Assembly (NCBI GenBank): GCA_003567725.1
Contig: PWYU01000031.1
Span: 1-64,000 of the forward strand
Direction: 5' to 3'
Length of the DNA stretch: 64,000 nucleotides
Origin: Syntrophomonadaceae bacterium
Lineage (GTDB): Bacteria > Bacillota > Dethiobacteria > DTU022
Position 1 is the first letter of the stretch, and the number at the start of each line of letters is the position of its first letter. The position numbers and the translations under genes were made by a program. This document shows, in pieces, positions 1 through 6,637 of the stretch. A model generated the notes under the pieces. It did no database searches. It was not told the origin of the DNA and was given only the letters and a program-made list of their open reading frames with translations.

Positions 1-930
1 AAATAGGAGTGCCCTCGGCAGTCGCAGCCGCAGGGTTGATGACGTCACTCGCCCCGACCACAACCACCACATCGGTATCAGAAAACTCCGGGGTGATCGC
101 ATCCATCTCATAAAGCTTCCCGTAATCCACACCCACTTCGGCCAAAAGCACGTTCATGTGACCCGGCATCCGCCCGGCAACCGGGTGGATGGCCATTTTG
201 ACCTCTTTGCCGTCCGCTTCCAGGGCATCGATCAGGGCCTTGACAGGCTGTTGGGCCTGAGCTAAAGCCATCCCGTAACCGGGAACCATGATAACCTTCT
301 CCGCTTCTCTCAGTAAGCCGGCAGCAGCTTTTTCAGAAGAAGCAGTATCTTCAAACACATCCCTGGAAAATATATCCGGCTCCATTTCAGCAGGGTCCTT
401 TCGGTAAGCGACGACCAGGTCGGGCACCGTTATAGCGGCATCCCCCCATATAGTAAGCACTTGCTCCTGTCCGTAGAGGGTATTGTCGACTCCCGAATAA
501 CCGGGCTTATTATCAAGGTTGCAGACAATGACCGCTTTAGCTTCCGACACGTGCAACACCGGCATACCGTAAATAGGAGTGCCCTCAGCAGTCGCAGCCG
601 CAGGGTTGATAACATCACTCGCCCCGACCACAACCACCACATCGGTATCAGAAAACTCCGGGTTGATCGCATCCATCTCATAAAGCTTCCCGTAATCCAC
701 ACCCACTTCGGCCAAAAGCACGTTCATGTGACCCGGCATCCGCCCGGCAACAGGGTGGATGGCAACCTTGACCTCTTTGCCGTCCGCTTCCAGAACATCG
801 ATCAGGGCCTTGACAGGCTGCTGGGCCTGAGCTAAAGCCATCCCGTAACCGGGAACCATGATAACCTTCTCCGCTTCTCTCAGTAAGCCGGCAGCAGCTT
901 TTTCAGGAGGAGCAGCATCTTCAAAAACAG
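1..930 (-). repeat. Direct tandem repeat, unit 570 bp (nt 1-~360 match nt 571-~930), coding for the duplicated dIII of PntB
   Basis: aaataggagtgccctc(g/a)gcagtcgcagccgcagggttgat... at 1 and 571; about 16 mismatches over 360 nt counted by eye; 570 = 190 codons, so in frame. Confidence 0.93.
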
Positions 931-1816
931 CACCCGAAAAAGTTACCGGTTCCGTTTCGGCTTCAGATCCAGCTGCCGCTTCGGCGGCATCTTTTTCTCT
1001 TATTGGGGCAGGGCCGGTTTGAAAGCCGCCTAATACTGCCGGTAAATTTCTGTTCATAGCCCGGCACATCAACTGGGTAAGAATCATGCCGGCAACACCA
1101 ACCAGTGACCCAACACCGGCCAGTAAAAAATTGCCAACGGCCAGGCCGCTTACCGCGGCGGCCACACCTGACATGGAATTAAGAAATGATATAATAACCG
1201 GCATGTCCGCCCCTCCGATACGAACAGCCATTAACAAACCGTAAATGGCAAATATTGCCAGTATAGCCAGCTGGTATACAGGAGCCTGCAAAAAAAACAA
1301 TCCAATGACCAACACGGCTCCTAATATCAATAAAAGGCGAAGGATTATACCGTGACCTTTCAAAAAAACCGGTTTCTGGGATACTAAACCCTGTAACTTA
1401 AGAGAAGCTACAACGCTGCCGCTGAAGGTAAGTGTCCCTACCCCAAGAGCCAGGGCTGCCGTGAACCAGAAAAGCCATAATTCCGTTCCGGCTTCCACGG
1501 CCATAACCGTGCCGGCCACCAGGGCGGAAGCGCCTCCGCCAAGGCCATTAAATAAGGCTACTGTCTGCGGTATCTGGATCATTTTCACCTGACGGGCCAA
1601 TAAGATTCCCAATATACCTCCAATAAAAATGTAAAGCCAGGCCAGGGAGTCAATCATCCCCATCTGCAGGAAGGCGAAAATAATTGCCAGAGCCATAGAA
1701 AAAGCACCCAGGCGGTTACCCCACAAAGCAGTGCGTGGAGATTGCATAAGCCGTATGCCTATTAAAAATCCAATGGTCAAAATAATTGGGATCAAATATT
1801 CAAGCAAAGTGATCAT
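1..1816 (-). CDS. pntB: NAD(P) transhydrogenase subunit beta (PntB), partial (runs off the left edge), with tandemly duplicated C-terminal NADP-binding domain III
   Basis: Manual translation from ATG 1816 (overlaps the pntA2 stop as ATGA): MITLLEYLIPIILTIGFLIGIRLMQSPRTALWGNRLGAFSMALAI..., membrane domain, then VIMVPGYGMALAQAQQPVKALIDVLEADGKEVKVAIHPVAGRMPGHMNVLLAEVGVDYGKLYEMDAINPEFSDTDVVVVVGASDVINPAA... and the same domain again. No stop in this frame down to nt 2. Absent from the ORF track, probably because it is open at the edge. Confidence 0.9.
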   Translation of the reverse strand, partial: MITLLEYLIPIILTIGFLIGIRLMQSPRTALWGNRLGAFSMALAIIFAFLQMGMIDSLAWLYIFIGGILGILLARQVKMIQIPQTVALFNGLGGGASALVAGTVMAVEAGTELWLFWFTAALALGVGTLTFSGSVVASLKLQGLVSQKPVFLKGHGIILRLLLILGAVLVIGLFFLQAPVYQLAILAIFAIYGLLMAVRIGGADMPVIISFLNSMSGVAAAVSGLAVGNFLLAGVGSLVGVAGMILTQLMCRAMNRNLPAVLGGFQTGPAPIREKDAAEAAAGSEAETEPVTFSGAVFEDAAPPEKAAAGLLREAEKVIMVPGYGMALAQAQQPVKALIDVLEADGKEVKVAIHPVAGRMPGHMNVLLAEVGVDYGKLYEMDAINPEFSDTDVVVVVGASDVINPAAATAEGTPIYGMPVLHVSEAKAVIVCNLDNKPGYSGVDNTLYGQEQVLTIWGDAAITVPDLVVAYRKDPAEMEPDIFSRDVFEDTASSEKAAAGLLREAEKVIMVPGYGMALAQAQQPVKALIDALEADGKEVKMAIHPVAGRMPGHMNVLLAEVGVDYGKLYEMDAITPEFSDTDVVVVVGASDVINPAAATAEGTPI

Positions 1817-2106
1817 CACCCCTTAACCTTTTCCTTTTCTTCATGCTTGAACATGCGTAGCATCCGGTCTGTAACCAAGAAGCCGCCTGCAACATTAATC
1901 ATGGCTAAAATTAAAGCCGCCGCGGCCAGGCTTCTGGCGCCCGGCGGGGCAGCGGCATATATAGCAATAGAGCCCAAAACAGTTATTCCCGAGAGGGCAT
2001 TCATTCCAGACATTAGTGGCGTGTGAAGTAATGAAGGTACAGCAGATATAACCCTGTATCCAAGCATAGCACACACCACAAGAAATATCAGTATCGCTGG
2101 CGACAT
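1816..2106 (-). CDS. pntA2: NAD(P) transhydrogenase subunit alpha part 2 (PntA2, membrane)
   Basis: 96 aa, hydrophobic, MSPAILIFLVVCAMLGYRVISAVPSLLHTPLMSGMNALSGI; between pntA1 and pntB. Confidence 0.9.
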   Translation of the reverse strand: MSPAILIFLVVCAMLGYRVISAVPSLLHTPLMSGMNALSGITVLGSIAIYAAAPPGARSLAAAALILAMINVAGGFLVTDRMLRMFKHEEKEKVKG

Positions 2107-2150: not shown

Positions 2151-3323
2151 TTATTCTTCCATTGCTTTCAAAGTTCCTTCATGAACAACTTTGTAATCTT
2201 TGGTAACCAGGGATTCTTTGATAACTTCATCTTCTAAGTCAAACTTCAGGTGTCCGTCTTCTATCAGGTAATTAATATAGTTGTAAGTGTTTTGAGCAAA
2301 CATCCGGGAAGAATCAATCGGCAGATAGGCCGGAATATTTAGTAGAGCGCTTACATAGATGCCATCGTAATCATACTCTTCCCCAGCCCGGCTCAGTTCA
2401 CAGTTACCTCCCTGGTCAATTGATATATCAATTATGACAGAACCCTTGTTCATCATTTCCACCATTGCTTTATTAACCAGGACAGGTGCTCTTTCTCCGG
2501 GTATCAAAGCAGCTAAGATAACAGCGTCACTTTCCTTCACATGAGGGGTAAGGATATCCCTTTCTTTTTCATACCAATCATCGGGAAGGCGCTTCGCATA
2601 ACCCCCTTCACCGACACCTAACCCTTCAGGAAGCTCAAAGGGAATCGGTTCAGCCCCCAGGCTCCGGGATTGCTCATTGGCTTCCGGCCTGATATCAAGG
2701 GTTTTAATCTTGGCTCCGAGTCTTTTTGCAGTTGCTATAGCCTGAAGTCCGGCAACACCTACTCCAACAACCAGGACCTGGGCAGGCTGGAGTACTCCGG
2801 CACTTGTAGGCATCATTGGAATAAAACGAGAAAGGTTGTGGGCGGCAATAATAACCGACTTATAACCGGCCACTGTGCTCATAGAGGTTAAGGTATCCAT
2901 ATGCTGCGCCCTGGAAATCCTGGGAATACTATCCAGTGTGAAACTGGTAATGCCACTGCTTGCCAGCATTTTAACCATGTCATGATTGGAAGGGTTTGCC
3001 GGGTGCAAAAATGAAATTAAAATACTTCCTTCCGGCATTAATTCAACTTCGTGCTTACCCAATGCTGGATTATTATGGGGCTCTTTAACTTTGAGAATGA
3101 CATCAGCCCTTCGATATAATTCTTCAGTACTTGTAACGATTTCTGCACCGGCTTGAATATAATCTTCATCATGAAAATATGATTTATCTCCAGCTCCTGC
3201 CTCCACCAGTACTTTTGCTCCGGCTTTAACGCATTGTTCAACCGTTTGGGGAATCGCAGCCACTCTTCTCTCACCGGCCAATATCTCTTTAGGAACCGAA
3301 ATAGTAAGACCGCTGAATTTCAT
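2151..3323 (-). CDS. pntA1: NAD(P) transhydrogenase subunit alpha part 1 (AlaDH/PNT family)
   Basis: VPKEILAGERRVAAIPQTVEQCVKAGAKVLVEAGAG, VVGVGVAGLQAIATAKRLGA; adjacent to pntA2/pntB. Confidence 0.9.
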   Translation of the reverse strand: MKFSGLTISVPKEILAGERRVAAIPQTVEQCVKAGAKVLVEAGAGDKSYFHDEDYIQAGAEIVTSTEELYRRADVILKVKEPHNNPALGKHEVELMPEGSILISFLHPANPSNHDMVKMLASSGITSFTLDSIPRISRAQHMDTLTSMSTVAGYKSVIIAAHNLSRFIPMMPTSAGVLQPAQVLVVGVGVAGLQAIATAKRLGAKIKTLDIRPEANEQSRSLGAEPIPFELPEGLGVGEGGYAKRLPDDWYEKERDILTPHVKESDAVILAALIPGERAPVLVNKAMVEMMNKGSVIIDISIDQGGNCELSRAGEEYDYDGIYVSALLNIPAYLPIDSSRMFAQNTYNYINYLIEDGHLKFDLEDEVIKESLVTKDYKVVHEGTLKAMEE

Positions 3324-3941
3324 TAAAAACATCTCCTTTTAATTGTGATTATAATACCAACTCTAATAAAGTCAAAACAGATAACCATGATAAAAATCCA
3401 GTCAAACTAATTTAGTCTAAAAAGCAATAAAAAAAAGACGTTTGACCCATCACTTCACAGCAATGAATTCCCAGTCCTTAAATTCAAAGAAAAACATAAA
3501 AGCAATAATAACACTTATTGCTTTTTCACCCCGCCAAATGCAGGATCCTGCCAGAGGCCCGTCCCCCTTATGGTTACCTAATCTTTTTGGGTATTAATTA
3601 CTTTACAAATATTAGTATATCAATATTCAATTAGATATGTCAATCACATAAATTCCCATTTTTATCAGATTATAATAACATACAAGTTTTTCGCAAAAAT
3701 AATTTTAATTATTGCACAAAAAAGAAGGGTTTTTATGCAAAACAGCGAATCACATTATTAAAATCGAAGATTATTTATTATCCGGGTCACCGTTAAATAT
3801 CCTTTAGCATTTAATTAAGAGAATAACTGCAAATAGGCAGCCTTTTATGAAATAAACAGGGGAGGTGATCTGCATTTATTAAACGGGCAAAAGGTAAGTT
3901 TTCCGGGTTTTTATTTACATTCTGAAAGGAGATGTTTTGTA

Positions 3942-5321
3942 GTGACGGAAGCGCTTTTAGCTTTCAATAGTTGGCTAAACTCTGTTGTGTGGGGACCTCC
4001 TTTTATGGTCCTCCTGGTTGGAACTGGTCTCTATCTTACTATTCGTTTGGGGTTTTTCCAATTTACTCATCTCGGACATGCCTGGAAACAAACCTTTGGG
4101 CGCTTTTTTTCCAAAGCTGAAGAAGAAGAAGGTGGAGCAATTACTTCATTCCAGGCGGTAGCATCAGCCATGGCTGCAACCATTGGGGTGGGAAACATTG
4201 CCGGTGTAAGCACAGCCATCGCGTTAGGTGGGCCTGGAGCTGTTTTTTGGATGTGGCTTACCGCTTTAGTCGGCATGGCCACAAAATACGGCGAGGCCAG
4301 TCTTGGAGTTAAATACCGGGAAATTGATCCGGAAACCGGCGAAGTATCCGGTGGGGTCATGTATTACATCGAAAAAGGCCTCGGTCCCAAGTGGAAGCCT
4401 GTAGCCATCATTTACGGGCTATTGGCCGGACTTGCTGCTTTCGGCATTGGCTGTATGGTGCAGGCCAATACTTTTGCCCACGCCTTTGAAACCGGTTTTG
4501 GCGTTCCTAACTGGGTTTCAGGAATCATCGTTGTTATTGCAACCGGCCTGGTAACTTTAGGGGGTATTAAGAGGATCGCCATGACCGCCGAAAGAATCGT
4601 CCCCTTCATGGCTATTGTTTATATTATTGGATCATTAATCATTATCTTTATGAATATCTCGAGCCTGGGTTGGGCTTTCGGGCAAATTTTCTATTATGCT
4701 TTTAACCCCATGGCCGCAACCGGCGGTTTCGCCGGAGCAGGAGTTGCAGCCGCAGTTCGTTTCGGTATCGCCAGAGGTATTTTCTCCAATGAAGCCGGGC
4801 TGGGTGCAGCTTCCATAGTGCACGCCCAGGCAAAAAACACGCCTGTCCGCCAGGGTATGTGGGGCATGTGGGAAACGTTTATCGACACCATCGTAATCTG
4901 CACGATGACCTCTCTGGTAATCATCCTGACAGGAGTTATTACCACTGGAACAACAGGAGCTGAACTGGCTTCTACGGCATTCAACAAAGGACTGCCTGGA
5001 CCTGGTGGTGTAGTTGTATTAATCGGCTTAATTCTATTCTCCTATACAACTATGCTTACCTGGAACTTCTATGGTGAAAAAAGTTGGGAATATATTTTCG
5101 GTAAAAGTATTGTTATACCGTACCGTTTATTATTCCTGGGCTTCCTCTTTGTTGGAGCAATCGGAGGGCTGGTCCTAATCTGGGACATAGCAGACACATT
5201 GAACGGTTTAATGGCTGCTCCCAACTTGATCGCCCTTTTAGTCCTGGCCAATGTTCTGGCTAAAGATAAGAAGGGTTACGTGGAAGAATTAAAAAATAAA
5301 CTGAGTGCAAAAATAAAATAA
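3942..5321 (+). CDS. Alanine or glycine:cation symporter (AGCS family)
   Basis: 459 aa membrane protein; AGCS signature region TIGVGNIAGVSTAIALGGPGAVFWMW; RBS aaaggagatg. Confidence 0.92.
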   Translation: MTEALLAFNSWLNSVVWGPPFMVLLVGTGLYLTIRLGFFQFTHLGHAWKQTFGRFFSKAEEEEGGAITSFQAVASAMAATIGVGNIAGVSTAIALGGPGAVFWMWLTALVGMATKYGEASLGVKYREIDPETGEVSGGVMYYIEKGLGPKWKPVAIIYGLLAGLAAFGIGCMVQANTFAHAFETGFGVPNWVSGIIVVIATGLVTLGGIKRIAMTAERIVPFMAIVYIIGSLIIIFMNISSLGWAFGQIFYYAFNPMAATGGFAGAGVAAAVRFGIARGIFSNEAGLGAASIVHAQAKNTPVRQGMWGMWETFIDTIVICTMTSLVIILTGVITTGTTGAELASTAFNKGLPGPGGVVVLIGLILFSYTTMLTWNFYGEKSWEYIFGKSIVIPYRLLFLGFLFVGAIGGLVLIWDIADTLNGLMAAPNLIALLVLANVLAKDKKGYVEELKNKLSAKIK

Positions 5322-5497: not shown

Positions 5498-6637
5498 GTG
5501 GTGTTAAGATTGGAAGATCGACTTCGCGCAACCCGTGCGGCAATCAACCTCAAAAATTTAGAGCATAATATAGTCTCCTTTCGGAACCATATCGCAGATA
5601 AAACAGCGATAATGGCTGTAGTAAAAGCGGATGGTTACGGTCACGGCGCATCTGAAATAGCATCTATCGCTTTAAAGTATGGGGCCACATGGCTTGGTGT
5701 AGCCTTCGTAGAAGAAGGCATCCGATTGAGGGAAAGAGGATTTACTGCTCCTATCCTGGTTTTAAATCCCCCTTTTGCCAATCAGGCCGAATTTTACATC
5801 AATCATAATTTGATACCGACCATATTTACGATGGAAACAGCAACAGTATTTTCAAATCTCGCTAAAAAAAATAACTGCCATTTAAACTTCCATCTAAAAG
5901 TAGATACCGGTATGGGCAGAGTGGGTGTTTTCCATTATGAAAAAGCAGAAGAATTCCTTGATCAGATCGTAAAGTTACCAAACCTTACCTGCAGCGGTAT
6001 TTATACTCATTTTGCCACTGCAGATGAAAATGATAAAAACTTTGCCAAAAAACAGTTAACCAGGTTTTTAGATTTAACCGGCAAATTAAAACTGAAGGGA
6101 ATATGCCCCTCCCTGGTTCATGCCGCAAACAGCGCCGCCGCACTGGAAATGCCAGAAGCCTGGCTGGATATGATCCGCCTGGGTATAAGCATGTACGGTC
6201 ATTACCCATCACAAGAAGTTGATAAAGATAGAATTCACTTAAAGCCTTTAATGACCTTAAAAAGCAGGGTCTCTTTTAAAAAAACAGTTCCTGCAGGCTC
6301 CTGCATTAGCTATGGGTGCACATACATAACTAAAGTAAAAACCCCGGTAGCTACCGTTCCACTGGGGTACGGAGACGGTTACAGCAGGTTGCTTTCAAAT
6401 AAAGCGCATGTCTTGATCAGGGGAAAACGCCATCCCGTAATCGGCCGGATCTGTATGGACCAGTTTATGGTAGATGTGAGCGCTGATCCAGGAATTAAAG
6501 AGGGTGATGAAGTTGTCTTATTCGGGAAGCAAGACGGTGCATGCATCTCTGCTGAAGAGATAGCTGATCTTTTGGGAACTATCAATTATGAATTGCTTTG
6601 TGCAGTTGGCAAAAGAGTCCCCAGGGTTTATATATAA
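5498..6637 (+). CDS. alr: Alanine racemase
   Basis: AVVKADGYGHGA PLP-lysine motif, CISYGCTY, VATVPLGYGDGYSR, GRICMDQFMVD. Confidence 0.95.
   Translation: MVLRLEDRLRATRAAINLKNLEHNIVSFRNHIADKTAIMAVVKADGYGHGASEIASIALKYGATWLGVAFVEEGIRLRERGFTAPILVLNPPFANQAEFYINHNLIPTIFTMETATVFSNLAKKNNCHLNFHLKVDTGMGRVGVFHYEKAEEFLDQIVKLPNLTCSGIYTHFATADENDKNFAKKQLTRFLDLTGKLKLKGICPSLVHAANSAAALEMPEAWLDMIRLGISMYGHYPSQEVDKDRIHLKPLMTLKSRVSFKKTVPAGSCISYGCTYITKVKTPVATVPLGYGDGYSRLLSNKAHVLIRGKRHPVIGRICMDQFMVDVSADPGIKEGDEVVLFGKQDGACISAEEIADLLGTINYELLCAVGKRVPRVYI

Follow-up and report, generated by a model that had tools for sequence, protein, structure and literature searches.

The closest described relatives of the genes studied here are those of the transhydrogenases of T. 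thermophilus, R. rubrum and E. coli, in which the three genes pntAa, pntAb and pntB supply the domains dI, dII and dIII. Every dIII has to make contact with dI as well as with dII, and how the pair of dIII in the dimer alternates is a central question of transhydrogenase mechanism. The K424-R425-S426 motif of E. coli dIII holds the 2'-phosphate of NADP, and an Asp in the 2'-phosphate pocket of a nucleotide site normally selects NAD. In transhydrogenase, dIII shuttles between dI and dII (PMC9529548, PMC5742237), and K424-R425-S426 is part of the NADPH site (PMC9529548). According to a review, all homologues have a single dII-dIII linker, 14-19 residues long, and species share the three-domain architecture; the channel histidine of known enzymes is likewise conserved, although its position may shift (PMC5742237). 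A more distant relative, alanine dehydrogenase (AlaDH, TIGR00518), shares the fold of dI, and its activity is abolished by alanine substitution of R15, K75, H96 or D270 (PMC10401832).

We analyzed a 64,000-nucleotide stretch of DNA from a Syntrophomonadaceae bacterium, referred to as the window, and searched for relatives of its pnt operon in the order, class and phylum to which it belongs. A search of open-access full text yielded no account of tandem dIII, and none of a PntA with AlaDH residues or of an N-x-D motif.

A PntB-like protein with tandem domains III

The window contains a single pntB-like open reading frame of 606 amino acids, which starts with GTG and reaches the contig end without a stop codon (Table 1). 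Its product is a PntB-like protein that carries a minimum of two consecutive dIII: the membrane part is followed by a linker of some 35 residues, a full dIII, an acidic linker of 30 residues, and the first 107 residues of another dIII. The Pfam family PF02233 matches the frame in two stretches with 646 bits and the second copy with an E value of 2.8e-52, and the nearest solved structures of the first copy are transhydrogenase dIII domains. As claimed by a sequence-only reading of the same DNA, a single frame spans the repeat, the in-frame spacing between the copies being exactly 570 bp (190 codons), with neither a frameshift nor a stop codon between them. Our recount also agrees with its figure of 16 mismatches in 360 nt, of which 14 fall within the first 355, and no other offset in the first 60 kb produced a match better than 131/355. 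The same reading had equated the repeat with domain III; the repeat is real, but the 570-bp unit takes in the linker, itself repeated only in part, and dIII alone comprises about 160 codons. Comparison of copy 2 with copy 1 revealed 7.5 synonymous and 3.5 nonsynonymous changes (dN/dS of about 0.15). An AlphaFold2 model of the window PntB built with one homologue had a mean pLDDT of 45 and shows just the identical order of strands and helices twice.

Table 1. Features of the pnt operon and adjoining genes in the window
Feature	Position	Strand	Basis or remark
pntB-like ORF (dII, dIII and cut dIII)	2..1819	-	leaves the contig; PF02233
Truncated dIII copy 2, cut by contig end	2..322	-	PF02233; 570-bp offset; dN/dS
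Acidic linker joining the dIII copies, 30 residues	323..412	-	sequence composition
Complete dIII copy 1	413..892	-	PF02233; nearest structures transhydrogenase dIII
N-L-D codons in place of the K-R-S motif, copy 1	512..520	-	alignment
Acidic/Ala-rich linker between dII and dIII copy 1	893..994	-	sequence composition
pntAb-like gene, 96 aa, NALSG for NAIHG (Ser at channel His position)	1816..2106	-	alignment
pntAa-like gene (dI), 393 aa, with AlaDH residues R23, K83, H110, D306	2151..3332	-	alignment
Na+:alanine symporter gene (agcS), divergent from the operon	3942..5321	+	TIGR00835 456 bits; PF01235
Alanine racemase gene (alr), after agcS	5498..6637	+	TIGR00492 411 bits

Distribution of tandem domains III in other genomes

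PntB proteins with two to four dIII in a single frame recur across the order, class and phylum of the window. Complete frames with two dIII were identified in nine genomes (G076, G089, G091, G177, G237, G257, G306, G471, and G590), with three dIII in four genomes (G192, G376, G536, and G577), and with four dIII in three genomes (G155, G164, and G313). The four copies of G313 and the two copies of G306 lie in genomes assembled as one contig of 3,695,371 and 2,309,262 bases, respectively, while the gene of G020 has two dIII copies and a run of N farther upstream. The interdomain linkers vary and contain many charged, Ala and Pro residues. All 22 tandem-dIII genes, including five in which the second copy is cut at a contig end, either sit in one fully supported branch of the dII tree or carry the motifs of that branch, and we refer to such genes as NxD type. 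They are outnumbered by 34 NxD genes with one dIII. Each of the 53 canonical (KR) genes, of which 50 belong to the same phylum and three come from outside it, has one dIII, and the absence of tandem genes among them as compared with the NxD genes has a p value of 4e-8, with kinship ignored. Outside these groups, 294 plasmid PntB records served as controls and gave no match at 60% identity or above; among the 23 extra match places in these records, the gene examined in one record proved to be an ordinary single-dIII one, and the only match in a scan of genome contigs was one canonical Rubrobacteraceae PntB. NCBIfam NF006974 was rejected as a diagnostic, since canonical PntB proteins outside its seed group also fall below the cut-off and four-dIII proteins pass it by the sum of their copies.

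Two one-contig genomes of 2,939,057 and 2,761,252 bases hold one-dIII NxD operons (L119 in G162:C1 and L120 in G368:C1, respectively). A pntB pseudogene with internal stops is found in a two-contig genome (L153, G152:C1, near 469000).

Nucleotide-binding motif and membrane channel of the NxD branch

In place of K-R-S, the dIII of NxD genes have N-x-D (N in 82/82, D in 80/82; N-L-D in the window), whereas all KR genes have K-R-[SG], with K-R in 53/53 canonical genes. No conserved basic residue that would make up for the loss was found in the alignment. The only two dIII that depart from N-x-D read NLRMDDAYSGV (L039, copy 1 of G010) and NTGKKSAYSGV (L060, G092). All other nucleotide and docking residues are retained in NxD dIII, including Y315, H345, R350, and D392. 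The description of the repeated domains as NADP(H)-binding is doubtful, because the 2'-phosphate motif is missing from every NxD dIII, whether single or tandem.

The membrane channel differs as well. At the alpha2-His42 position NxD genes carry Ser (66/66), and at beta-His91 they carry Asn (66/66); in KR genes one of these positions is occupied by His, with the exception of G419. In that genome (L118), the operon of a PntB with the canonical motif has no channel His at either known position and may be an intermediate. The dII equivalents of S139, D213 (of the D213-R265 pair), N222, and R265, placed by alignment to the E. coli numbering, are retained in the NxD branch. The motif, the channel and the features of dI described below are common to NxD members with single and with tandem dIII.

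Alanine dehydrogenase residues in dI

The equivalents of AlaDH Lys75, His96, and Asp270 are present in 68/68 NxD dI domains, and that of Arg15 in all 65 that reach this position; in the window, R23, K83, H110, and D306 correspond to R15, K75, H96, and D270 of the M. tuberculosis enzyme. In the 50 KR dI domains, other residues prevail at the K75, H96, and D270 positions, with Asp in 1/50. Among about 40 AlaDH columns compared, seven are common to the NxD but not the KR branch, namely K75, H96, D270, the neighbors E76 and Q271, and two others. The window dI is 29% identical to AlaDH and scores 184 bits with TIGR00518, below the cut-off of 392, and, unlike AlaDH, it belongs to a membrane complex that also includes dII and dIII. 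Both branches, NxD and KR, retain the NAD-type Asp of dI, and on this ground we rejected a cofactor swap with NADP in dI and NAD in dIII. In a dI tree rooted on AlaDH, which served as a test of an ancestral NxD branch, canonical dI nest inside NxD in 98% of bootstrap trees; the AU test did not reject NxD as one clade (p 0.51).

Compared with PntAa-PntAb-PntB, the NxD systems thus have the same three genes, the dI-dII-dIII domains and their Pfam families, the NAD-type Asp of dI, the dII-dIII coupling residues and the docking residues of dIII, but differ by one to four dIII, N-x-D instead of K-R-S, the lost channel His and the AlaDH residues in dI. The window operon encodes dI, dII and dIII as pntAa-pntAb-pntB and lacks the K-R-S/G motif, the channel His and the single dIII per beta subunit. 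Because these tested defining features are absent, we file its gene as a PntAB relative and not as an NADP-linked proton-pumping transhydrogenase.

Genomic context and distribution of alanine dehydrogenase

In the window and in three more species of its genus, pntAa lies back to back with agcS, followed by alr. This arrangement adjoins the operon in that genus only, where gene order is conserved anyway. A regulator of the Lrp/AsnC family is encoded near the NxD operon in three genomes and an ArgZ-like protein in four. AlaDH is rarer in genomes with NxD pnt genes (10/45) than in those without pnt genes (168/344), with a p value of 7e-4 when kinship is ignored.

An isochorismatase-family protein, possibly a nicotinamidase, is encoded near the operon in five genomes (L098, L147, L150, L152, and L124), at less than 100 bp in four of them. 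Tandem pntB is repeatedly followed by genes for two DUF1538 membrane proteins and further genes (L091, L106, and L108 in G155, G400, and G438, respectively).

A possible ion-coupled dehydrogenase

A lineage without the residues that define transhydrogenase and with those of AlaDH may run a different reaction. Based on these residue patterns, the tandem architecture with its variable linkers, the selection on the copies and their positional orthology in old arrays, the agcS-alr neighborhood and the lower frequency of AlaDH, we tentatively propose that the NxD branch could be a transhydrogenase-related dehydrogenase that is coupled to an ion, binds NAD(H) on tethered dIII arms and perhaps acts on alanine, a reading that we regard as plausible while placing it short of an even chance. 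In such an enzyme, dI would hold NAD(H) much like a prosthetic group and exchange hydride with a small amino or oxo acid at the AlaDH-type site, alanine being the first guess for the substrate. A dIII arm would carry NAD(H) in its N-x-D site, because of the preference for NAD conferred by Asp in the 2'-phosphate pocket, and would dock at dI to accept or donate the hydride. The arm would then swing to dII, where its opening and nucleotide exchange with the cytosol would be coupled to ion movement through the His-less channel, so that the hydride would pass between the acid and the NAD(H) of the cytosol. With several arms on flexible linkers, one could be at dI while another is at dII. An ion gradient could in this way drive an otherwise uphill amino acid oxidation, and the reverse reaction could store energy. 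In its working, though not by homology, this arrangement would resemble the E2 component of pyruvate dehydrogenase, which has one to several near-identical mobile lipoyl domains, in species-variable number, on flexible linkers that are charged or rich in Ala and Pro; the lipoyl arms carry an acyl group on lipoate, whereas NxD dIII would carry hydride on a nucleotide.

This dehydrogenase proposal is weakest in its choice of substrate and ion and in its need for two NAD(H) sites. As dI, too, appears to be NAD(H)-type, another such site in dIII would be sensible only if the nucleotide of dI does not exchange freely, and since members with one dIII are commoner than tandem ones, the extra arms would be non-essential. 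We consider a broader claim rather unlikely, namely that the branch represents a new class of enzymes in energy conversion, membrane complexes in which an ion gradient is coupled to the oxidation of an amino acid (alanine) via tethered multi-copy NAD(H) carriers, and is a sister or ancestral form of the proton-pumping transhydrogenase.

The main alternative, possible but in our view doubtful, is that the NxD enzymes are still NAD(H)/NADP(H) transhydrogenases, in which NADP(H) is bound to dIII through different contacts or less tightly, other residues serve the channel, the extra arms raise turnover or the local dIII concentration, and the AlaDH-like residues of dI are relics. The operon, the domain order, and the retained NAD-type Asp of dI, coupling residues of dII and docking residues of dIII all fit this explanation, and the geometry of direct hydride transfer is probably unaltered. 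It must nevertheless accommodate the loss of K, R, and S from every copy in favor of a near-invariant Asp, with no compensating basic residue, and three AlaDH residues that are invariant in 68 dI domains, as is unlikely for relics.

PntAB has been proposed as a marker of syntrophic acetate oxidisers (reported in PMC11932165). If the NxD branch is not NADP-linked, many genomes are misannotated, and this proposal would need re-examining, because some such operons may be of the NxD type. As direct test objects for the turn-taking of dIII, nature also offers enzymes in which as many as four dIII are tethered to each dII. An ion-driven amino acid dehydrogenase, if confirmed, would give anaerobes a new means of driving an unfavorable oxidation.

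Selection on the dIII copies and their age

Between copies within one gene, dN/dS ranges from 0.04 to 0.37 in the computable pairs, which span 99% to 56% identity; synonymous changes are saturated in some pairs, and low values include pairs only 56-61% identical. The dIII copies are under purifying selection and functional by that measure. In the dIII tree, the first copies of G155, G164, G192, and G438 form one supported clade and the last copies of G155, G192, G438, and G400 another. As first and last copies cluster by position across genera, these arrays predate the genera and their positions have kept their identity. The copies of G313, G306, G020, and the window cluster by genome and are therefore young or homogenized. 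The suggestion of a recent duplication in the sequence-only reading consequently holds for some genomes and fails for others, in which copies are orthologous by position. The dII-only tree requires at least 14 switches between single and tandem states. Directly behind the stop codon of the two-dIII pntB of G177 (L100) lies a third dIII decayed by stops and frameshifts, an array that shrank.

These switches, together with the near-identical copies in G313, G306, G020, and the window, the decayed dIII of G177, and the 34 relatives that manage with one dIII, could also be explained if the extra domains had arisen by replication slippage and unequal recombination in a gene prone to repeats and were selectively neutral or nearly so, with a single dIII doing the work. 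We consider this improbable given the low dN/dS in all copies, even the most divergent pairs, the distinctness of first and last copies across genera, and the restriction of tandem genes to the NxD branch (0/53 canonical genes, p 4e-8, kinship ignored).

Contig ends and assembly

Contig C25 ends at window base 1, so the array is not traceable further on that contig. Contig C75 of the same genome (L004:1-330) opens inside a dIII, of which it encodes the C-terminal 101 codons, and has a stop after 109 codons. Its first 145 nt overlap the C25 end with one mismatch, and it is a mosaic of window copies 1 and 2, so that the C75 domain either completes copy 2 or represents a third one. Since the C75 start matches the C25 end, the window array holds two copies or more; the expectation that further copies might exist is borne out by the relatives with three and four dIII.

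An assembly artefact or strain mixture, for which the MAG-like assembly (127 contigs, 3.5% contamination), the termination of the window contig within the repeat and the inexact C75 overlap could be cited, has already been refuted as the source of the tandem architecture and retains a negligible probability, as the copies are diverged yet in frame (the ground on which a simple assembly duplication had earlier been doubted), the identical architecture occurs in the one-contig genomes G313 and G306 among the many with two to four dIII, and contigs stop inside dIII in 20 genomes and inside dII in one (p 8e-8 against the lengths of both parts), as expected of real repeats, at which short-read assemblies break. 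Several seemingly broken arrays contain runs of N. Another contig of the window genome (G000:C115, L250) carries a second, cut pntAa-like gene that is 64% identical to that of the window and represents either a second operon or contamination.
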